IMG/VR virus record: IMGVR_UViG_3300018080_000473
Coordinates: 1-28,659 of that record
Source of the DNA: a virus
Length of the DNA stretch: 28,659 nt
Reading direction: 5' to 3' (one strand)
In this document: positions 1 through 28,262 of the stretch, piece by piece
Position numbering within the stretch: the stretch's first letter is position 1
How the letters are laid out: each line of letters starts with the position of its first letter
Position numbers and translations under genes: made by a program
Notes under the pieces: generated by a model
The model's input: the letters and a program-made list of their open reading frames with translations, nothing else
Databases searched by the model: none
Told to the model about the DNA's origin: nothing

Positions 1-505
1 CGTCCTTGTATTTGCAAGTGTTGGCATACGGAGGGTCGCAATATATTAAACTGTGTTCAGGTATCTCTAGCTCCAAGTAACTACCAGATTTAAACACTAC
101 TCCGTCCAAATTTTTTGCCTGTTTAACAAGACAGCGACTCCCTCTATCAGCGTAATTATCTCCCTTTGCATTGAACGCATACCCACCCCACCACTTTCCG
201 CCAAAACTACAAAGGAAGCCAACAAACCCAACCAACTCTTTTGGGTAGTCCGTGGGGTTTGATTTGATTGCATAATACAGGTCTTTACTGATATTGGTTG
301 GTGGGATATACCCGTCTCTTAATGCAATTAAGAGGGCAATAAGAAACTCATGACTATCATTTCCAATCCTTTTCCCACCTACTTTATCAATCATATTTGC
401 ACCACCAACAAAAGGCTCTACCCAAAATTGTTCAGGTTTCCTTTCAGCAATCATGATTGGCAGAATGTGTTTCGCTATTCTATTTTTACTTCCCATGTAT
501 TGCAT
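1..505 (-). CDS. D12-class N6-adenine DNA methyltransferase, 3' end cut by window edge
   Basis: The reverse strand reads an open frame from an ATG at 505 to the window edge without a stop (168 residues seen). It begins MQYMGSKNRIAKHI, the N-terminal GSK motif of Dam/D12-type methyltransferases. VEPFVGGANM (residues 29-38) is the AdoMet-binding motif and DPPY (157-160) is the catalytic motif IV. Such enzymes (PF02086) transfer a methyl group from AdoMet to N6 of adenine in a short target site. Phage copies usually protect phage DNA from restriction or tune gene expression. The start overlaps the end of the small upstream ORF by 20 bases, with AAGGAG ten bases upstream inside that ORF, so translation is probably coupled. 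Full D12 enzymes are about 260-300 residues, so roughly 100 C-terminal residues lie outside. Target specificity cannot be read from this part. Confidence 0.92.
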   Translation of the reverse strand, partial: MQYMGSKNRIAKHILPIMIAERKPEQFWVEPFVGGANMIDKVGGKRIGNDSHEFLIALLIALRDGYIPPTNISKDLYYAIKSNPTDYPKELVGFVGFLCSFGGKWWGGYAFNAKGDNYADRGSRCLVKQAKNLDGVVFKSGSYLELEIPEHSLIYCDPPYANTCKYKD

Positions 506-17559: not shown

Positions 17560-19047
17560 ATGTCAAAAAAAATATATCATGCATATGGCTTAGAGGCTGC
17601 TTTAATAGAAGTCCCAAGCATGCCAGTGATAGCTGATCGAGCTCCTACCGCTAGTGATGATAACTTTGCGTTAGGACAGTCTTGGGTTCACGCATCTGCT
17701 GGCAATATTTATTTTATGGCAGATAGTGGCACGTGGGTAGCGGCCGGCGGTGCTGCTGGAACGGTTGCTTCTCTTCGTGGGGATGATGGAGCATCAGCTC
17801 TACCGACAGGAGGAGGAACGATTAATATCTATGGAACAGCTGCTCAAGGGATAACTACTTCAGGAGCTGTTGCCAACACTATAACAATTACCGTTCAAGA
17901 TGCTACGACTGTCGTCAAGGGTGTGACAAGACACGCAACCACTGCAGAAACTCAGACAGGAACAGCTACTAATATATCAGTAACTCCTGATGGGCTTAAC
18001 GCTAAGTTGTTAGACTGTCCACAATACCGTGTTCCTTATGGAAACGGGGCAGCTAGCGCGTTAGGTTATGTAGCTAACTTGTTGGATGGTGAATTTGTTG
18101 GTGGAGTAACAGGAGCTGCTCCTGCTGCTGGTTCTATCACTTCAACTGGTGGAACGATAGCGATAACTACACCTGCTGCACCGGACATTAACTTAGAAAT
18201 ATCTGGCGCTGTCATTAATCAAATTGCTGTTGATTCAGGCGCTGCTATTAGTGGAGTTGCCGGTAATGTTAATCTCCAGGGGCCAACACTTATTACTGGC
18301 GCTGGTGTAAGGACAAGGAATGTAGGAGGTTCCCCTAATGTAGGTTTAGAGCTTTATTCGCCATATACTGGTGGAGATTTTGCTTTTCAAGAGACAACTG
18401 GCGGTTCTACTCGAAGAGTAACTGTGGAATCCACAGTCGATGCGGGTGGATCGGCTGCTACCTTTAGAGCACAAGTTGCTGGAGGAACTTCTGATGATGC
18501 ATATTCTGAGTATGGAGTTACTGGCGGTCTTTACTATTCTTCTGGTATCGACAATTCAGATGGTGATCGCTACAAAGTTACAGGCAATAATGCTGCTGTC
18601 ACTCCTTCGTCTGGTACTGACTGGTTAGAAATAGACCACACTGGAGGACAGCTTATTTTCCATGATCAGATTAGGTTTGAATCATCTGTTGCTAACACGG
18701 TAGATGAAGTAAAAGTTCAGTCGGCTGTTCAGACAGTGGGAGCCGTTACTTCTACCTTATGGTCATATACCTTATTAGCTGGGGAAGCTATCCAGTTCAA
18801 TGCAGACTTTCTCGGATTTGATTCAGTTGGAGGAGAAGCCGGCGGAGGTAGGGCTATTGGTGTGGGAACACATACTGGCGGTGTCGCTGTAAAGGTTGGC
18901 GAAGATATTAGTTACAGTGAAAACTTTAGCGGAGGAGCTGGAGTTATAGCTGTTGATGTTAATGGTAACGATATTAGGTTAAGGGTGACTGGAATTGCAG
19001 CTACTACCATTGATTGGAAAGCAACTATTAGATACATGTTAATTTAA
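17560..19047 (+). CDS. Tail fibre protein 1 (495 aa)
   Basis: 495 residues, Gly/Thr/Ala-rich and beta-repetitive. The N-terminus contains DNFALGQSWVHASAGNIYFM, a common fibre-anchor motif. Residues about 120-155 (VKGVTRHATTAETQTGTATN ... VTPDGLNAKL) are the 'ATxAE.xxG.xxxxxVTP..L' fibre repeat. The module YSSGIDNSDGDRYKV follows, and the protein ends in the shared terminal domain '[VLI]RVTG....T..W.....Y'. The second half is clearly paralogous to that of the next gene. It probably forms a trimeric fibre that binds the host surface. GAGAGGAAACA precedes the ATG, with the inverted repeat just upstream. Confidence 0.8.
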   Translation: MSKKIYHAYGLEAALIEVPSMPVIADRAPTASDDNFALGQSWVHASAGNIYFMADSGTWVAAGGAAGTVASLRGDDGASALPTGGGTINIYGTAAQGITTSGAVANTITITVQDATTVVKGVTRHATTAETQTGTATNISVTPDGLNAKLLDCPQYRVPYGNGAASALGYVANLLDGEFVGGVTGAAPAAGSITSTGGTIAITTPAAPDINLEISGAVINQIAVDSGAAISGVAGNVNLQGPTLITGAGVRTRNVGGSPNVGLELYSPYTGGDFAFQETTGGSTRRVTVESTVDAGGSAATFRAQVAGGTSDDAYSEYGVTGGLYYSSGIDNSDGDRYKVTGNNAAVTPSSGTDWLEIDHTGGQLIFHDQIRFESSVANTVDEVKVQSAVQTVGAVTSTLWSYTLLAGEAIQFNADFLGFDSVGGEAGGGRAIGVGTHTGGVAVKVGEDISYSENFSGGAGVIAVDVNGNDIRLRVTGIAATTIDWKATIRYMLI

Positions 19048-19058
19048 GAGGTAAAAAT

Positions 19059-20687
19059 ATGAGCTTAAGTACAAGATTTACTGATGGCGATCCGTACTAT
19101 TCTATGCAATTACCTGCTGGTGGCCAACAATGGGTCATTGGTATTGATGATTCGGATGGTGATCGCTGTAAACTTTTGCCTGCTGCCAATCCATCTGTTG
19201 CTGGGACGAGAGCATTTTCTGCTGATCCAACGACAGGGGTTATGGCGGTAACTAACCTATCCTTTGACGACCACGTATCCACATTAAGTGCGGATGGCCA
19301 AGTCTGGATAGGAGCTGCTGGTGGCGTACCAACGCCTGCCACCATTACGGCCGGGACTGCTGCTAGCGTAGTTAACGCTGCCAATTCCATTACTATTGGA
19401 GTAGATGGAACTGTCGCCACTACTTATACATGCGATGGGGCGTCATCAGCAACACCTGCTGCCAATAACCTGAACATATTGGGAACAGCAGCCCAAGGCA
19501 TATCTACTGCTGGGGCTGGTTCTACCGTTACTTTAACGATTCAAGATGCTACTGATGCTTTAAAAGGAGTAGTTGAATTAGCCACAGGAGCAGAAGTAAC
19601 CACTGGTACTGATACTTCAAGACCAGTCGTTCCTAGCACATTAACTACTAAATTAGGAGCTCAAACATTACATGGTGTTCCTTATGGAGGAGGCGCTGGT
19701 ACTAATTTGAGTTGGCTAGGAGAAGCTAGTGATGGTCAGCTTATAATTGGGCAGACAGGAGGAGTTCCTGTTTTAGCTACCCTTACAGCAGGAGCTGGAA
19801 TAGGTATTGCTAATGCTGCAGGATCTATTACTATCTCCAATACTGGAGGAGTTGCTTCCACATTTACTGCGGAAGATGCTACTACTTGTACTCCTGCTGC
19901 TGGTAATACTAACTTTGTCGGAACTGGAACAAATGGTATCTCAACAACAGCTGCTGGCAACACGATGACTATCTTGATGGATTCGCCTTATGCTGATGGG
20001 GACTTTTCATTTGAGTCTCAGGTTGGAGGAGCTACAAGAATACTTACTGTTCAGAATACTGTAGACCAAGCCAATTCTGAAGCAGAAGTTCTGATCCAGG
20101 TAGCTGGAGGTTTGTCTTATGATGCGTATGTTGAATATGGAATTGCAGGAACCAAGTTTTATTCAACAGGTATCGATAATTCCCAATCAGATATCTGGAA
20201 ATTAACGACCGATACGGCATCAACAGATCCATCTTCTGGAACTACGATGATGGAAGTAAATTCTACTACTTCTGTTAAGTTCTACAGAGAACTTCAGTTT
20301 GATGGAGTTTCTGCAGGTTATACCGGATCAGAAGAGCATTTAGTACAAGCTGCTGTTCAGACAACAGATGCAGTTCAATCGACCCTTTGGTCATTAACAT
20401 TGGCTGCTAACCAAGCAATCACTGTCGAAGCAAGGATATGCGCACCAAATTCAACTCATGGAGCTATGGTTGGAGGCAATCTTTTAGTTTGTGCAAGACG
20501 AGCTGGTGCTGGTGCTGCTTTAGCACAAGCGCCTGTTGTTAATGTCTTAGAAGATGCAGCTGGTGCCCCAACATTTACTGCTGATGTTAACGGCAATGAT
20601 GTAAGAATTAGAATAACTGGAGAAGCTGGTACAACATACAACTGGGTAGGAACTATCAGATATCATTTGGTTAATACTAATGCTTAA
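19059..20687 (+). CDS. Tail fibre protein 2 (542 aa), paralogue of fibre 1
   Basis: 542 residues with the same module set: VIGIDDSDGDRCKLLPAANP near the N-terminus, two 'DGQ..IG..GGVP..AT.TAG' modules (starting SADGQVWIGAAGGVP and SDGQLIIGQTGGVP), an 'LATGAE...G......VP..L' fibre repeat, YSTGIDNSQSDIWKL, and the terminal domain ending IRITGEAGTTYNWVGTIRY. From about residue 310 onward it aligns with fibre 1 through equivalent motifs. Several fibre genes in series usually means a branched or heterotrimeric host-recognition apparatus. It starts 11 bases after fibre 1, with GAGG upstream. Confidence 0.8.
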   Translation: MSLSTRFTDGDPYYSMQLPAGGQQWVIGIDDSDGDRCKLLPAANPSVAGTRAFSADPTTGVMAVTNLSFDDHVSTLSADGQVWIGAAGGVPTPATITAGTAASVVNAANSITIGVDGTVATTYTCDGASSATPAANNLNILGTAAQGISTAGAGSTVTLTIQDATDALKGVVELATGAEVTTGTDTSRPVVPSTLTTKLGAQTLHGVPYGGGAGTNLSWLGEASDGQLIIGQTGGVPVLATLTAGAGIGIANAAGSITISNTGGVASTFTAEDATTCTPAAGNTNFVGTGTNGISTTAAGNTMTILMDSPYADGDFSFESQVGGATRILTVQNTVDQANSEAEVLIQVAGGLSYDAYVEYGIAGTKFYSTGIDNSQSDIWKLTTDTASTDPSSGTTMMEVNSTTSVKFYRELQFDGVSAGYTGSEEHLVQAAVQTTDAVQSTLWSLTLAANQAITVEARICAPNSTHGAMVGGNLLVCARRAGAGAALAQAPVVNVLEDAAGAPTFTADVNGNDVRIRITGEAGTTYNWVGTIRYHLVNTNA

Positions 20688-20699
20688 CAAACGTAAAGG

Positions 20700-20719
20700 G
20701 AGAGGGTATATACCCTCTC
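20700..20719 (+). other. Perfect 20-base palindrome between fibre genes
   Basis: GAGAGGGTAT followed by its exact complement ATACCCTCTC. As RNA it forms an 8-bp hairpin with a 4-base loop. There is no T-run after it, so it is not a standard terminator; it may stabilise or separate the upstream mRNA, or partly attenuate the next genes. Confidence 0.5.
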
Positions 20720-20734
20720 TCTTGTGGAGATAAT

Positions 20735-22144
20735 ATGACTAGATTTTATACAGACAATATAACCTTTGATGATGGAACTTCCTTTCTTGATACTACGGGA
20801 GAAATATGGCTTGGTCAGACGGGAGGGAATCCAACAGTTTCCCAATTGTCTGCGGATTTTGATACAAGTGCAGGCACAAAGATAACTGACAGCACTAATA
20901 TATTTTATGTAGATAAAGGAGGAAATGATTCAAATGATGGAAAAACTTTATCTCGAGCTAAACTAACTATTGGGTCAGCTATCACTGCTGCTGGAGTTGG
21001 TCCTGCTGTCATTTTAATTAATCCTGGAACCTATGTAGAAAACATTTCGTTAACATCTTCTGTCTCATTAATAGGAATGCAGTCAGGTGTTGATGATCGT
21101 ATCGTTCAGGTGACAGGAGGTCTTACTATCAATTTAACAGGAAGAGCCTGTATTGAGAATATTAACTTCATGCCACCAAGTGGAGTTGTCGGTATAACGA
21201 TGACGGGAGCTAATGTATGTACAGCTTCTATTACTAACTGTAATTTTGAAATGAACAATGCCGTAGGTATCAATTTAACTAACGACAATATGGATTTACT
21301 TTGTACTCATATTAGGTTAGTGGGTGCCGTTGGGAGCAATACTATTACTGCTACTGGCGGATGTATAGCCATCCTTCATGGAGAGCTTGAAGGAGGTGAT
21401 GTTATTGCTCTTTCTGGAACGAATGAATATAGCCAACTTGGAGGGGTTATTAATGACGTAGGATTTACATTAGCTGACACCTCAGTTCTTTCTATCTTTC
21501 AAGGAGTGGTAAGTAGTGGTGCAGATGTAGCTATTGATATTGGGGCAACAGCTGAAGTCACTTTAAGGGGAACGGCTATTTTCTGTAATCATGTTGGGGG
21601 AAATGCTATCACTGGAACAGGAACATTGATTTGGGCATCTGTTACTTTGGCGGGAACAGCGACATCTATTCAAGCTGGTCTTTTACCAGGAACTATGAGT
21701 TGGCATCCATTTGGTTCAACTTCAGTCGTTGGTGTTAATAGTTATAATTCAGATTACTTTTCGGCAAATAGTGCAACAGGTGAAGTAACGTTAGCGCAAT
21801 ATGAAACTGATACTGGTCAAACGATAGGTGCTGTTAACGATGATGTGCTTACATTAGACCTAGGAGGGACGGCTGGTGGCTATATTCTTGAAGCAGAAAT
21901 AATTGGCTTTGAATCAAGCGGGCCAGCTATAGGATGGATAAAATTAGTTGGTGGAGCAAGAACAACTGGAGCTGCTTCAACTGTTGTTGGAACGACTGGT
22001 AAAGACATTGGTTGTGATACATCGTTAGATGGAATAACAGCTCAATATGTAGCTAGTGGCAACGATATTATTGTTCGTGTCACTGGGGTAGTCGCTTTAA
22101 CTATTAATTGGAAGGTTAAATTAACTTATACATTTATATCTTAA
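20735..22144 (+). CDS. Tail fibre protein 3 with right-handed beta-helix (469 aa)
   Basis: The N-terminus has the cassette FDDGTSFLDTTGEIWLGQTG shared with fibre 4. Residues 57-105 (FYVDKGGNDSNDGKTLSRAK ... VILINPGTYVENISL) are the classical entry of a pectate-lyase-like right-handed beta-helix, which continues to about 330 in repeated strands (IENINFMPPSGVVGITMTGA; ASITNCNFEMNNAVGINLTN). The C-terminus (about 375-469) is the shared terminal domain, including IIGFESSGPAIGWIKLVGGA and VRVTGVVALTINWKVKL. Beta-helix fibres bind and sometimes cleave surface polysaccharide; no catalytic residues can be assigned by eye. GGAG lies before the ATG. Confidence 0.8.
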   Translation: MTRFYTDNITFDDGTSFLDTTGEIWLGQTGGNPTVSQLSADFDTSAGTKITDSTNIFYVDKGGNDSNDGKTLSRAKLTIGSAITAAGVGPAVILINPGTYVENISLTSSVSLIGMQSGVDDRIVQVTGGLTINLTGRACIENINFMPPSGVVGITMTGANVCTASITNCNFEMNNAVGINLTNDNMDLLCTHIRLVGAVGSNTITATGGCIAILHGELEGGDVIALSGTNEYSQLGGVINDVGFTLADTSVLSIFQGVVSSGADVAIDIGATAEVTLRGTAIFCNHVGGNAITGTGTLIWASVTLAGTATSIQAGLLPGTMSWHPFGSTSVVGVNSYNSDYFSANSATGEVTLAQYETDTGQTIGAVNDDVLTLDLGGTAGGYILEAEIIGFESSGPAIGWIKLVGGARTTGAASTVVGTTGKDIGCDTSLDGITAQYVASGNDIIVRVTGVVALTINWKVKLTYTFIS

Positions 22145-22167
22145 AATAAAATTATGAGGTAAAATTT

Positions 22168-23244
22168 ATGACAACAAGTCCTGTTGGAAACATTAACAGA
22201 GTATCTAGAGTAGACAATATCTCATTTGATAATGGTACATCTATTCTTGATACTGACGGACAAGTGTGGATAGGCAATAGCGCTGGTAATCCCGGTCCTG
22301 CTACCCTAACACAACCTGCTGCCGGTATAACTATTACTGGTGGGGCTAATTCAATAACATTTGCTTTAGCTAATGATTTATCAGCAGTTGAGGGCATAGC
22401 TACTACTGGTGTGGCTTCTCGAACAGCTGCTGACACGTGGGCTACTTCATCTATAACTCAAAATGCAGTTATTGTTGGAGCTGCCGGAGAGCTTCTTTCA
22501 AATATAGGACCCTTAACTGATGGACAACTCCCAATTGGCTCAACGGGAAATCCGCCTGTCGCTGCGAGCCTTACTCAACCAGCTGCTGGTATAACTATTA
22601 CCGGAGGAGCTGGAAGCATAACATTTGCTTTAGCTAATGATTTAGCTGCTGTAGAAGGTCTTGCGGGAACTGGTCTTTCTAGCAGAACAGCTGCTGATAC
22701 ATGGACAACTTCTTCTGTTACCCAGAATGCTATACTTTATGGGGGAGCTGGTCAGACTGTATCTAACCTTGGTCCTTTAACCGATGGACAATTGGTGATT
22801 GGGTCAAGTGGGCTGGCGCCAAACGCAGCAACTCTTGCTACGGGAACGGGTATTACGGTAACTAATGGAGCGGGTGTAATTACGATAGCTGCTGCTGATG
22901 CTGCTGAAGGAACAGGCCAAACTATTGGTGCCGTTACTGATGATTTGGTCACTGTTGCATTAGGAGTCACTGCTGGAAATTATATCTTTAAGGCTTATAT
23001 TACTGGCTTTGAATCGACAGGGCCTGGAGGAGCTTTTATTGAACTAACTGGTGGCGGACGAACTACTGGAGCTGCTTCAACAAAAGTATCTACTACTGTT
23101 AAGAATATTGGATCTGATGCAGCACTAGTTGGAGTCACTGCTGACTATGTAGCTAATGTTAATTCAATTATTGTTAGAGTAACAGGAGTGGCTGGATTGA
23201 CTATTAACTGGAATGCTAAAGTTACTTATGCATTTGTATCATAA
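22168..23244 (+). CDS. Tail fibre protein 4 with tandem 88-residue repeats (358 aa)
   Basis: After the N-terminal cassette (ISFDNGTSILDTDGQVWIG) come two full 88-residue repeats (residues 30-117 and 118-205) and a partial third starting at 206. The repeat contains 'LTQPAAGITITGGA.SITFAL', 'ANDL.AVEG', 'SRTAADTW' and 'GPLTDGQ', motifs common in phage fibres. The C-terminal domain (about 250-358: AYITGFESTGPGGAFIELTG ... VRVTGVAGLTINWNAKV) is a near copy of that of fibre 3. It is likely a thin fibre whose length depends on repeat number. GAGG precedes the start. Confidence 0.8.
   Translation: MTTSPVGNINRVSRVDNISFDNGTSILDTDGQVWIGNSAGNPGPATLTQPAAGITITGGANSITFALANDLSAVEGIATTGVASRTAADTWATSSITQNAVIVGAAGELLSNIGPLTDGQLPIGSTGNPPVAASLTQPAAGITITGGAGSITFALANDLAAVEGLAGTGLSSRTAADTWTTSSVTQNAILYGGAGQTVSNLGPLTDGQLVIGSSGLAPNAATLATGTGITVTNGAGVITIAAADAAEGTGQTIGAVTDDLVTVALGVTAGNYIFKAYITGFESTGPGGAFIELTGGGRTTGAASTKVSTTVKNIGSDAALVGVTADYVANVNSIIVRVTGVAGLTINWNAKVTYAFVS
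22255..22782 (+). repeat. Two tandem 264-bp repeats in fibre gene 4
   Basis: Units 22255-22518 and 22519-22782 encode 88 residues each, in frame. Parts are identical at DNA level, such as a 27-base run covering ATAACATTTGCTTTAGCTAA in both. Elsewhere they differ mostly at third positions. A third, partial unit begins at 22783. Confidence 0.8.
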
Positions 23245-24805: not shown

Positions 24806-24846
24806 AAGTCTGTAGTTTTCGAACACATTTCTACAGACTTTTTTAT
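24806..24846 (+). terminator. Intrinsic terminator of the rightward late operon
   Basis: Perfect 10-bp stem AAGTCTGTAG (24806-24815) / CTACAGACTT (24831-24840), 15-base loop, followed by TTTT ATTTAT. It ends transcription of the fibre cluster. Confidence 0.85.
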
Positions 24847-24850
24847 TTAT

Positions 24851-24880
24851 AAAAAAAAAGCCTACAAATTAATGTAGGCT
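24851..24880 (-). terminator. Intrinsic terminator of the leftward early operon
   Basis: Read on the reverse strand: perfect 8-bp stem AGCCTACA/TGTAGGCT (24873-24880 with 24859-24866), 6-base loop, followed by a run of T's (the A-run 24851-24859). Together with the preceding hairpin it separates the two convergent arms. Confidence 0.85.
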
Positions 24881-24919
24881 AACAATTATAAAACAGGCCT
24901 TCTATAAAAGAAGATATGC

Positions 24920-25246
24920 TTAGTCTACTGAAGAATTTTCTTTTTCTTCAACTGATTCTTTTTGGTCCTTTTCTTCTTCTGGTTTTTCTTCGACTATTTC
25001 TTCTTTAACTTCTTCAAAAGGCTTATCTTGATCGGTATTAATTTTAACAGAGACTGCTTCTTCTTCTGAAGTTAATAGAAAGGCTATAACATCTTTACAT
25101 CTGATGATAAGCGTTTTAAAGACAAAAAACTTATTATTCATAAGAATGGATGACATGTTTTCGGAAAGGGCTGCCTGTTCTTTTTCGGTTACTTCATATT
25201 TTATGTTTTGAGCTGTAGTAAAATAAAAGTTGATAAAGTATTTCAT
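24920..25246 (-). CDS. Hypothetical acidic-tailed protein (108 aa)
   Basis: The N-terminal domain of about 70 residues (MKYFINFYFTTAQNIKYEVT, LIIRCKDVIAFLLTSEEE) is small alpha/beta with no membrane segment. It is followed by a highly acidic low-complexity tail of about 35 residues (EEVKEEIVEEKPEEEKDQKE). The ATG overlaps the upstream stop by four bases (ATGA), so it is coupled. It is the last gene before the leftward terminator. Acidic tails are common in DNA-mimic and single-strand-binding-type proteins, but nothing else supports such a role. Confidence 0.65.
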   Translation of the reverse strand: MKYFINFYFTTAQNIKYEVTEKEQAALSENMSSILMNNKFFVFKTLIIRCKDVIAFLLTSEEEAVSVKINTDQDKPFEEVKEEIVEEKPEEEKDQKESVEEKENSSVD

Positions 25247-25978: not shown

Positions 25979-26291
25979 TATGCCCGTAAATATCATCCAT
26001 GCTAAAAAGTTTATCTTGCTCTTTTGCATACAGATATTCAGCCATTCTAGCAATACAAGCTTCTTGAAATTTAGCCATCATATCTGAATCAAATACGATA
26101 TAGTCATATTGCTTAATAAACTTATCTCCTTCTTTTTTAAACTTACATGGCAACCCAATCCATTTATCATTTTCTTTTTCAAAATAAGCTATATGATTAA
26201 TCTCCATATTCCATTTAGGAATTCTTACATTAAAATATCCTTTTAAAGCTTTATTTCCTGAAATGGGCTCATAATCAACTATTTCTATCAT
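25956..26291 (-). CDS. SpoVG-like phage replication-region protein (111 aa)
   Basis: 111 residues. NKALKGYFNVRIPKWNMEIN, HIAYFEKENDKWIGLPCKFK matches the pattern 'L.GF..V..P.....I....... ....W..LP.K', common in small unannotated phage proteins near replication genes and reminiscent of SpoVG, a small DNA-binding protein. The C-terminal half is helical (MMAKFQEACIARMAEYLYAK). It starts with GGAG six bases upstream and overlaps the end of the Hc1-like gene by 17 bases, so it belongs to the same transcript. Confidence 0.6.
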   Translation of the reverse strand: MIEIVDYEPISGNKALKGYFNVRIPKWNMEINHIAYFEKENDKWIGLPCKFKKEGDKFIKQYDYIVFDSDMMAKFQEACIARMAEYLYAKEQDKLFSMDDIYGHNDADNIS

Positions 26292-26466
26292 CTTTCTCCG
26301 CCTCTATTGATGCTTTTCTATACATTTTTCCATAAACAGCAAGCTTTAATGAGTTCTTTCTTGCCCTTTGAGCAGCAGCCTTATTGCCGCCTCTGGCTTT
26401 TGAAAGATTTAACTTAAATTCGTCAATATGATTAAAAAGAATATCGTAAAGTTCATCTAGATCCAT
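26275..26466 (-). CDS. Histone H1/Hc1-like DNA-binding protein (63 aa)
   Basis: The start is set at ATG 26466 (GAGG five bases upstream); an in-frame ATG at 26496 would overlap the promoter. A helical N-terminus (MDLDELYDILFNHIDEF) is followed by LSKARGGNKAAAQRARKNSL, KLAVYGKMYRKASIEAEK. This closely follows the core of the chlamydial Hc1 family as I know it ('L.KAERGNKAAAQRVRTDSIKL...AKVYRKESIKAEK'). Hc1 condenses the chromosome in chlamydial elementary bodies; related H1-like proteins occur in some other bacteria. The long lysine/alanine tail of cellular Hc1 is absent. It may compact phage DNA or modulate host nucleoid structure. Confidence 0.75.
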   Translation of the reverse strand: MDLDELYDILFNHIDEFKLNLSKARGGNKAAAQRARKNSLKLAVYGKMYRKASIEAEKDDRNS

Positions 26467-26494
26467 AATAACCTCTGTGTTTATATGTAGATGC

Positions 26495-26522
26495 ATTATA
26501 TGCTGTCTGATATTTTGTGCAA
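26495..26522 (-). promoter_or_regulatory. Leftward promoter for the Hc1-like gene
   Basis: On the reverse strand, TTGCAC (26517-26522), 16 bases, consensus TATAAT (26495-26500), about 29 bases before the ATG at 26466. It lies just after the stop of the preceding gene, so the Hc1-like gene can be expressed separately from replication. Confidence 0.6.
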
Positions 26523-26529
26523 GCTTTTT

Positions 26530-26820
26530 TTATTTAATATCTATTTTAGAACAACATCTTTTGTAAGTTTTTTTTAATAAATCATCAAACTCAAAAGGAG
26601 GATGTTCATAATCTAAAGAAATTCCTTCTGAGGACCTCTTATGATTAATAGCCCAAAGAAGAAGAAACTCAATGTGGCTTTCTCGTGCAGTTATCTTCAT
26701 AATGCTGTGCTCAACAGGATTATAATCAGATGCTGCTAATGTAAAGGGATCAAACTTCTCAGCAAATATCTTTGCCTTTTCACGGTTCTCATTAATCCAT
26801 GCCCAATTATGTTCGTTCAT
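26530..26820 (-). CDS. Hypothetical protein coupled to the replication initiator (96 aa)
   Basis: 96 residues: MNEHNWAWINENREKAKIFA, a helical tryptophan-rich start, then IMKITARESHIEFLLLWAIN, and a basic C-terminus (LLKKTYKRCCSKIDIK). The hydrophobic stretch FLLLWAI is too short for a membrane span. Its ATG overlaps the initiator's stop by four bases (ATGA), so the two are co-translated. Position next to a replication initiator suggests a helicase loader or accessory replication factor, but no Walker motif is present. Confidence 0.6.
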   Translation of the reverse strand: MNEHNWAWINENREKAKIFAEKFDPFTLAASDYNPVEHSIMKITARESHIEFLLLWAINHKRSSEGISLDYEHPPFEFDDLLKKTYKRCCSKIDIK

Positions 26821-27884
26821 AAATCACCTATCATCTTTTTAGCTTTTTCCATTAAAGGCTTACAGGAATTATAAAAACTTTCATCAGCATATTCCGTAGT
26901 TAATAAGTGGTAAAACTTTTTTAAAGAACGTTGGAATTTTACTTCTTTGTTATAAACCTCGAAATAATTAGGCTTCAAAACAAGAAAGCCCACTTTGTCT
27001 TGCCAATAAGCGTCGTTAGCCTTTTTACCATTAAACCATGAATAATATGAATTATAGAGCTCGTTTAAGACCTCTTCCTCTTGGTCTTTAAGGGAGGGGG
27101 GGCTGCCGGAACTTGGGGGGTGGGTTCTTTCTTTCTCTCTCATTGAACGGAAAGCTTCTTTATTACTTGCACGTTCATTAGCCCTTGAAAACCAATTTCG
27201 TAAAAAAGACCTCCACTTTTTCTTGTGTTTAGCTTTGGTAGGTTCAGACTTTATCCATTCAATAGCTTTTAATAGTTCTATTTCTAGGTCTATTGAAGGA
27301 TAAAGCTTTTTCCAAGAAAGCTTGTCTTGCTCAGTTATGTTGATAAAGTCATGTTTTATAAAGTCATAATTAATATCAAAATCAGGCTTCGAAAGTGTGA
27401 TTTCACTATTCGAAGCTATTATAGGAGTATTATTTATAATACTCGTTTTAGTATCTGGTTTAGTATCTGGTATAGGTGTGGGGATATCCCTTTTTCCATT
27501 TGGGGATATCCCTTTTTCCATTTGGGGATTTAGCCGTGGGGATTTTCCAATAAAATATATCTCATTAATAAAAGCATACCATTTTGTTCGATCATAATAA
27601 TTTTTACAAAGTAAAATGGGTTCATGGGCTTTATTTTCAGTTTTTCTAACTTTCTCAGTAACTAATTTATATAATAAATCCCTTACTTGATCTTTACTCC
27701 AATAAGGAAAAATAGCAGCAATTTCTTCTAAAGTTTGATATGTCCAAGTTCTTCCTTCTTTAAAGTTACGATTAAGTCTTTTGTTCTGATAGATCCAAAA
27801 TTGAAAATGATGAATTAGAATAGCTTCCTCAACAGAATATTGAGCAGCCAGTTCTATATCAAAAGAATGATGAATGGATCTCAT
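26817..27884 (-). CDS. Replication initiator, DnaD/lambda-O-like, with origin repeats inside the gene
   Basis: 355 residues. Residues 1-110 form a winged-helix domain (QYSVEEAILIHHFQFWIYQN; RTWTYQTLEEIAAIFPYWSK; DQVRDLLYKLVTEK; YYDRTKWYAFINE), a pattern common in phage and plasmid initiators of the O/DnaD type. A repetitive linker (about 112-148, containing NPQMEKGISPNGKRDI and PDTKPDTKT) is followed by a helical C-terminal domain (about 165-355). The gene has an AAGGAGG site five to seven bases before ATG 27884. The linker DNA carries iteron-like repeats and hairpins, as lambda O carries ori-lambda. It probably binds the origin and recruits the host helicase. Confidence 0.8.
   Translation of the reverse strand: MRSIHHSFDIELAAQYSVEEAILIHHFQFWIYQNKRLNRNFKEGRTWTYQTLEEIAAIFPYWSKDQVRDLLYKLVTEKVRKTENKAHEPILLCKNYYDRTKWYAFINEIYFIGKSPRLNPQMEKGISPNGKRDIPTPIPDTKPDTKTSIINNTPIIASNSEITLSKPDFDINYDFIKHDFINITEQDKLSWKKLYPSIDLEIELLKAIEWIKSEPTKAKHKKKWRSFLRNWFSRANERASNKEAFRSMREKERTHPPSSGSPPSLKDQEEEVLNELYNSYYSWFNGKKANDAYWQDKVGFLVLKPNYFEVYNKEVKFQRSLKKFYHLLTTEYADESFYNSCKPLMEKAKKMIGDL
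27386..27545. repeat. Iteron-type replication origin inside the initiator gene
   Basis: Plus-strand order: hairpin GCTTCGAA...TTCGAAGC (27386-27393/27409-27416), with inner AGTG/CACT; perfect inverted repeat GAGTATTA-TTTA-TAATACTC (27425-27444); a 12-bp tandem direct repeat TTTAGTATCTGG (27447-27458 and 27459-27470); then a 22-bp unit starting GGGGATATCCCTTTTTCC at 27480-27501 and 27502-27523, with partial copies GGGGATTT at 27524 and 27538. This matches the lambda layout of initiator iterons within the region between its two domains. Confidence 0.6.
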
Positions 27885-28080: not shown

Positions 28081-28091
28081 TTTTACATAAG

Positions 28092-28118
28092 AGACCTCCC
28101 AAAAAGAGGTCTTTTTTT
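28092..28118 (+). terminator. Intrinsic terminator for a short rightward RNA
   Basis: AGACCTC (28092-28098) / GAGGTCT (28106-28112), 7-base loop, followed by seven T's. No plus-strand gene lies upstream within 3 kb, so it should end a short RNA started in the 27.9 kb region, antisense to the initiator leader. Confidence 0.65.
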
Positions 28119-28173
28119 ATATATGATTGAGTTTAATTAAGTTATATATTGACGTTAAATTGACAAATCTTTT

Positions 28174-28236
28174 AAGCTCATTGCGCTAAGCTATTTAGCG
28201 AAACTTGAGCTTGTAGCGACAGCGCGAATTGAGCTT
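28174..28236. repeat. Nested inverted and direct repeats in the replication control region
   Basis: AAGCTCA (28174-28180) pairs with TGAGCTT (28206-28212), enclosing CGCTAA/TTAGCG (28184-28189/28195-28200). A second TTGAGCTT follows at 28229-28236. The segment is richer in G+C than its surroundings, and two TTGAC motifs lie just before it (near 28149 and 28160). No protein is apparent. It may be a structured leader, a regulatory element or a remnant of an inserted repeat. Confidence 0.45.
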
Positions 28237-28262
28237 ATTTCTTGTTTAACCATTTCTTTTTT

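Follow-up and report, generated by a model that had tools for sequence, protein, structure and literature searches.

Origins of replication that lie within initiator genes are known from phage lambda and from RepA_N plasmids, and for the majority of phages we know of no mapped origin. In lambda O and in the RepA protein of plasmid pSK41, the N-terminal domain binds iterons, adjoining A+T-rich repeats melt, and the C-terminal domain brings in the helicase or primase (PMC7466680, PMC5703833). The lambda origin, like that of Stx phages, places its iterons inside the initiator gene between the parts encoding the N- and C-terminal domains, followed by an A+T-rich tract and then by an inverted repeat (PMC7466680). 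In pSK41, the winged-helix N-terminal domain of RepA binds four Rep boxes in the center of the rep gene, the origin itself encodes the protein linker, and the C-terminal domain contacts the replisome (PMC5703833). A lambda-like iteron origin has also been proposed within the replication gene Fhv_0043 of Francisella phage KIRK (PMC7924643), and in the RepA_N replicons of the Vibrio cholerae PLE, origin specificity is set by the N-terminal domain of the initiator, which covaries with the semi-palindromic iterons (PMC8263062).

Here we analyze a block of repeats at positions 27386-27545 of an IMG/VR virus record, within the linker of a replication initiator gene. We argue that this block is probably a phage replication origin carried inside the gene for its own initiator, a reading to which we assign a probability of about 85%.

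A block of repeats within a phage initiator gene

The stretch of DNA that we analyzed, hereafter the window, is the complete IMG/VR record IMGVR_UViG_3300018080_000473, at 28,659 bp. Because it encodes a P22-type portal, a terminase, and a major head protein, we assign it to a tailed phage. We found no terminal repeat in the window, and the record may therefore be incomplete. Cumulative GC skew reaches its maximum at ~25 kb, at a switch in gene direction, and its minimum near 3.5-4 kb; given that skew largely tracks gene direction and that the record may be a fragment, it is uninformative about the origin either way.

Several other features of the window are recorded here as observations. A partial D12-class adenine DNA methyltransferase gene runs off the left edge (2-505, minus strand), and positions 17560-23244 hold consecutive glycine/threonine-rich proteins, apparently paralogous and with common motifs such as DGQVWIG, which are possibly tail-fiber or decoration proteins. 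Close to the initiator gene lies a 73-amino-acid protein (26275-26496, minus strand) that matches Pfam Hc1 (histone H1-like) above the cutoff, with an E value of 1.1e-13. Hc1 is best known from Chlamydiae, so this protein may be a clue to the host, or it may be a chromatin protein of the phage. Repeated TTGAGCTT / AAGCTCA elements (28172-28240) lie upstream of the initiator gene, with a terminator-like stem near them (28089-28115).

The initiator gene, P0001, and the parts of its linker are as follows, listed in the order in which they are read on the gene strand after the gene as a whole.

26817..27884, minus strand: replication initiator gene P0001, 355 aa; profile matches to phrog_11233 (replication initiation protein), E 2.8e-22, and phrog_6493 (DnaD-like helicase loader), E 2.3e-5
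27546..27884, minus strand: N-terminal winged-helix DNA-binding domain, aa 1-113 (N-domain alignment, AF2 model, covariation)
27479..27543, minus strand: iteron array with four ATCCCC(A) half-sites and two perfect 22-bp units (repeats; 22-nt period conserved in the family)
27514..27535, minus strand: degenerate iteron GGCTAAATCCCC+AAATGGAAAA with one good half-site
27492..27513, minus strand: complete 22-bp iteron AGGGATATCCCC+AAATGGAAAA, dyad at 27502-27513 (family model of a 12-bp dyad plus AAATGGA)
27480..27491, minus strand: dyad AGGGATATCCCC of the iteron nearest the A+T-rich region (register set by ACACCTATACC)
27464..27476, minus strand: junction element CCTATACCAGATA (ATA and CCA codons in 38/38 xIPx homologs)
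27447..27470, minus strand: two tandem 12-mers CCAGATACTAAA, a putative unwinding element (family 12-nt period, A+T peak, low GC3)
27425..27444, minus strand: inverted repeat GAGTATTA-TAAA-TAATACTC with 8-bp arms, adjoining the putative unwinding element
27387..27415, minus strand: second hairpin CTTCGAATAGTG-AAATCA-CACTTTCGAAG, arms interrupted by one bulge
26817..27370, minus strand: C-terminal part, aa 172-355, helical in the AF2 model

All 38 family members that we scanned, P0001 among them, matched PHROG replication-initiation families. The single-sequence AF2 model of P0001 was poor, and the alignment-based model was good for the N-terminal domain only (pLDDT ~92 across aa 10-70). The alignment, this model, and the covariation described below place the recognition helix at aa 64-76, with D65 and R68 as putative specificity residues. 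The C-terminal part would be the one that recruits the replisome. It has no named relative: a search with the last 167 aa found none in phages, and no helicase loader was recognized in the neighboring genes scanned. A sequence search of solved structures with P0001 returned no credible relative, and a search with the whole protein found no close relatives in viral or genome contigs, so we reached homologs through an alignment of the N-terminal domain.

A reading of this DNA from sequence only had reported two hairpins, a 12-bp tandem repeat, and a 22-bp tandem repeat with partial third and fourth copies in a 160-base block, and we find every one of these elements where it was placed. On the plus strand, TGGGGATATCCCTTTTTCCATT occurs as perfect tandem copies at 27479-27500 and 27501-27522, followed by a partial third copy of 7 nt and a displaced fourth, such that TGGGGAT starts at 27479, 27501, 27523, and 27537 (spacing 22, 22, and 14). 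The 12-bp repeat TTTAGTATCTGG occupies 27447-27458 and 27459-27470 on the same strand. Read along the gene strand, the order is ATCCCCACGGCTAA, two copies of ATCCCCAAATGGAAAAAGGGAT, ATCCCCACACCTATACCAGATACTAAACCAGATACTAAAACGAGTATTATAAATAATACTC, and the second hairpin. With the register of the iterons anchored on ACACCTATACC, following L011, the nearest homolog, whose iteron is GGGCATCTGCCC-ACACCTATACC (also given as GGGCATCTGCCC-ACACCTATACCAGATACTAAAACAGATACTAAG), the dyad reads AGGGATATCCCC and the spacer reads AAATGGAAAA. The junction element, as TATACCAGAT, is present in a single copy in the window. With its fourth half-site at a spacing of 14 and only two full dyads, the array is less regular than most in the family.

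This clustering of repeats exceeds chance. With 40 pairs of local direct repeats, the block ranks first among 160-nt segments of the window; the next separate cluster (~24.9 kb) has 22 pairs, and when the whole record was Markov-shuffled 60 times, the maximum was 18 (mean, 7). The repeat signal of the initiator gene was also above that of 100/100 of its codon shuffles. The second-strongest cluster (24841-25080) lies in a minus-strand open reading frame with a Glu/Lys-rich C terminus and looks like low-complexity coding sequence.

Closest described layouts

The closest layouts to that of P0001 are those of lambda O and of the RepA_N plasmids, represented by pSK41. The sequence-only reading had drawn the analogy with lambda O, and this holds for the layout, as the elements of the lambda origin share both order and orientation with those of our locus, and does not extend to the protein family: the N-domain profile had no significant match to lambda O, and P0001 did not match Pfam phage O. 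The repeats themselves are also distinct from those of lambda, as that reading had stated. Although the lambda iteron ATCCCTCAAAACGAGGGA resembles ATCCCCAAATGGAAAAAGGGAT of our initiator, lambda iterons are 18 bp long and spaced by 20, 24, and 23, whereas the P0001 linker has 22-bp units with another spacer, and both the AAATGGA spacer and the CCTATACCAGAT element are absent from the lambda origin.

The pSK41 rep gene shares with the initiator family the Rep-box-like position in the center of the gene, and it has a 23-nt period (22 in the initiator family), a dyad TGTCAAAAGGACA with a central AAAA, a spacer that contains AAATG, and, further downstream, 15-nt repeats rich in A+T. Its arms and unwinding repeats differ from those of the initiator family, however, and pSK41 is a plasmid whereas the family is a phage one. 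None of the 38 family members scanned matched the RepA_N Pfam entry PF06970, and a profile comparison with pSK41 RepA gave no significant match; RepA_N entries were among the top Foldseek matches of the P0001 model, although these matches were weak (E 0.08-1.4). Of the remaining systems, KIRK Fhv_0043 carries a different annotated domain, Phg_2220_C, and the PLE origin is intergenic with ~30-bp iterons.

Among annotated phages, the initiators of BcepMigl, phiLdb, elemoE, Bacteroides phages, and Vibrio 1.213.O (PHROG 11233/6493) have an N-terminal domain of the same family as P0001, with C-terminal parts that differ from it. In BcepMigl, phiLdb, and the Bacteroides phages, the corresponding position of the linker also carries significant repeats, and the regions that we examined in these annotated phages contain no origin annotation.

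Linker repeats are conserved as DNA across the initiator family

Our N-domain alignment reached 80 viral loci and later a further 80 viral and 80 bacterial-genome loci, the latter including Acetobacterium, Janthinobacterium, Chromobacterium, many Rhodobacteraceae, Bacteroidales, Gastranaerophilales, Spirochaetes, and Patescibacteria. Since homologs were sought by patterns in the N-terminal domain only, their linkers were not selected for. We tested 62 dereplicated homologs, with our own initiator excluded, for sequence matches at fixed lags. Lag 22 gave 339 matches in the linkers versus 4.0 expected (45/62 genes), and lag 12 gave 213 versus 8.0 expected (35/62 genes; z 48); neither period appeared in the DNA encoding the N- or C-terminal domains of the same genes. 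In 65 further independent genes held out from this set, the 22-nt period was found in 42 and the 12-nt period in 33, with every other lag in 9 or fewer. About one-third of homologs are without a clear 22-nt array. A per-gene codon-shuffle test was significant for 33/63 homologs versus 3/57 control open reading frames, a weaker result than that of the lag test because many arrays have diverged.

In a motif model, the family iteron consists of the 12-bp dyad NNCN-AAAW-NGNN and, after it, AAATGGA. This model identified 179 sites in 62 linkers, that of our initiator among them, distributed over the three reading frames as 62/66/51, and 55/59 of the genes with multiple sites used more than one frame, with successive 22-nt copies passing through frames 0, 1, and 2. 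In P0001, the 12-mer repeat is in phase with the codons and encodes PDTKPDTK, whereas the 22-mer, whose length is not divisible by 3, is translated in two frames, as QMEKGIS and PNGKRDI, so that the protein does not repeat at this place. Thus, the earlier suggestion that the repeats force the linker to be repetitive is borne out for the 12-mer and fails for the 22-mer. The two arms of the dyad show complementarity covariation at exactly four nested pairs (z 7.1, 6.5, 6.0, and 4.5), far above other pairs, and at least three of these four pairs are present in 45/65 held-out genes.

The common order of parts in the family is the winged-helix domain, 22-bp iterons, CCTATACCAGAT, A+T-rich 12-mers, inverted repeat, and C-terminal domain. 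The junction CCTATACCAGAT comes after the last iteron, and its xIPx codons are ATA and CCA in 38/38 homologs, where 15.8 and 13.1 are expected, a choice fixed beyond the usage of the genes (z 7.9 and 9.1). Directly past the junction, at +20 to +40, there is an A+T excess of 0.137, and the GC3 of the 12-mer segment is 0.077 compared to 0.298 in the rest of the gene, lower in 38/38 genes; an A+T-rich region therefore adjoins the iterons inside the initiator coding sequence. The slot after the 12-mers is occupied by an inverted repeat in 11/38 genes versus 0.8 expected, and the 8-bp hairpin of P0001 at 27425-27444 falls in this slot. Homologs show no matching excess of hairpins at the position of the second hairpin (27387-27415). 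Four diverged homologs (L011, L014, L027, and L050) have a small palindrome of the CCCC-TAAA-GGGG type directly past the unwinding region.

Recognition-helix residues covary with iteron bases

Two bases of the dyad arm are associated with residues of the initiator. Iteron base -12 is associated with residue 68 (MI z 14.3) and base -11 with residue 65 (MI z 11.8), and the predicted fold places the two residues in its recognition helix. Among 17 representatives with less than 55% identity, residue 68 was top of 332 tests, whereas residue 65 was weaker and not among the top. We fixed residue-base rules before new genes were fetched and tested these rules on the 65 independent genes. Predictions were correct in 31/37 cases at -11 and 26/37 at -12 (permutation p ~5e-5 and 1.5e-4, respectively), with individual rules performing as follows: R68->G, 21/24; K65->C, 14/16; R65->A, 11/14; and D65->G, 5/5. 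The E68->C rule was weak on the held-out genes (3/6), and a K68->T rule, learned mostly from one clade, was dropped after 0/3 correct predictions. Given these two outcomes, we regard the code as only partial. For P0001, D65 and R68 predict GG, which agrees with the four GGGGAT half-sites; in the left dyad half, AGGG, agreement is confined to -11, as the base at -12 is A where G is predicted.

Alternative explanations for the repeats

The repeats could instead serve as operators through which transcription is repressed or timed, whether by the initiator or by a different regulator of the phage, with no origin present. Winged-helix domains and palindromic dyads of 12 bp are typical of repressors too, and a protein of this kind can play both roles. 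However, the sites lie ~340 nt inside the gene, they are followed in relatives by A+T-rich repeats and often an inverted repeat, none of which an operator needs, and the layout is that of the mapped origins of lambda and pSK41, so we consider this explanation improbable. It is nonetheless the least improbable of those we weighed. A functional role in single-stranded form, with the hairpins and repeats working in the mRNA or as a packaging or assembly signal, has a very slim chance of being correct: the block folds strongly as a single strand (DNA z -5.6, RNA z -4.8), yet the DNA dyads account for much of this folding, an Rfam scan of the window gave no match, and the partner in the covariation is a DNA-recognition helix.

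The remaining explanations give the DNA no function of its own. Had slippage recently duplicated segments of a linker that is tolerant as protein, it would have left identical 22-bp copies flanked by short TGGGGAT repeats, as are seen here. At the level of the family, the comparison of sequences already contradicts this explanation, as the 22-nt period, the dyad, and AAATGGA recur in deeply diverged homologs with other arms and in all frames, and as the arms show compensatory changes and covary with residues of the helix; we give it very little weight. Equally hard to credit as the conservation of a peptide linker (PIPDTKPDTK, PNG, and QME motifs) of which the DNA repeats are a mere consequence is the RNA-level role above. 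The codon-phased 12-nt repeat and the frequent occurrence of PIPD among relatives are what such a peptide would produce, whereas the shift of frame between 22-nt repeats, the junction codons, and the GC3 drop in 38/38 genes are not. The sequence-only reading had named homologs with the same protein repeats and scrambled synonymous DNA as a finding that would refute an origin, and the outcome was the opposite: the DNA is conserved, while frame and peptide change.

Discussion

Our family comparison strongly supports reading the block at 27386-27545 as a likely replication origin. Tandem repeats of what appears to be the initiator-binding type sit within the initiator coding sequence, and the iteron-type origin that had been suggested between the N-terminal domain and the C-terminal part gains support from the PHROG matches of the scanned family and from the 22- and 12-nt periods of diverged phages. 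The suggestion of a new initiator-iteron pair is not supported if the pair is taken in isolation, as P0001 carries one version of an iteron that is widespread and common to its family.

We propose that the winged-helix N-terminal domain would bind the 22-bp iterons, each consisting of the 12-bp dyad AGGGATATCCCC (best half-site GGGGAT) and AAATGGAAAA, with R68 and D65 of the recognition helix contacting the two outer G bases of the half-site; the covariation described above lends such binding indirect support. The resulting nucleoprotein complex would then open the adjoining A+T-rich CCTATACCAGATACTAAACCAGATACTAAA segment, perhaps with help from the flanking inverted repeat, after which the C-terminal part could bring in helicase or primase machinery. 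Since the linker is tolerant as protein, its DNA would be free to serve as an origin.

We also think it somewhat better than an even bet that P0001 represents a class of intragenic phage origins that is very widespread and has yet to be named, with a fixed grammar and a readable residue-to-base code. Such a class would extend to phages and prophages of many bacterial phyla and would comprise 22-bp iterons, CCTATACCAGAT, 12-mers, and an inverted repeat, and in the proposed code the outermost base of the arm would be set by residue 68 and its neighbor by residue 65. A search of the literature, which did not cover the main review on phage replication modules by Weigel and Seitz (2006), found no description of this grammar or code, and a prior description is possible.

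Starting from a single linker, we arrived at a rule that points to the likely origin in ~100 diverse phages and prophages and that ties two recognition-helix residues to two DNA bases. If this holds, initiator-origin specificity would be predictable from protein sequence, which bears on the coevolution of initiators with their origins and on how phages that share a cell keep their replication separate.
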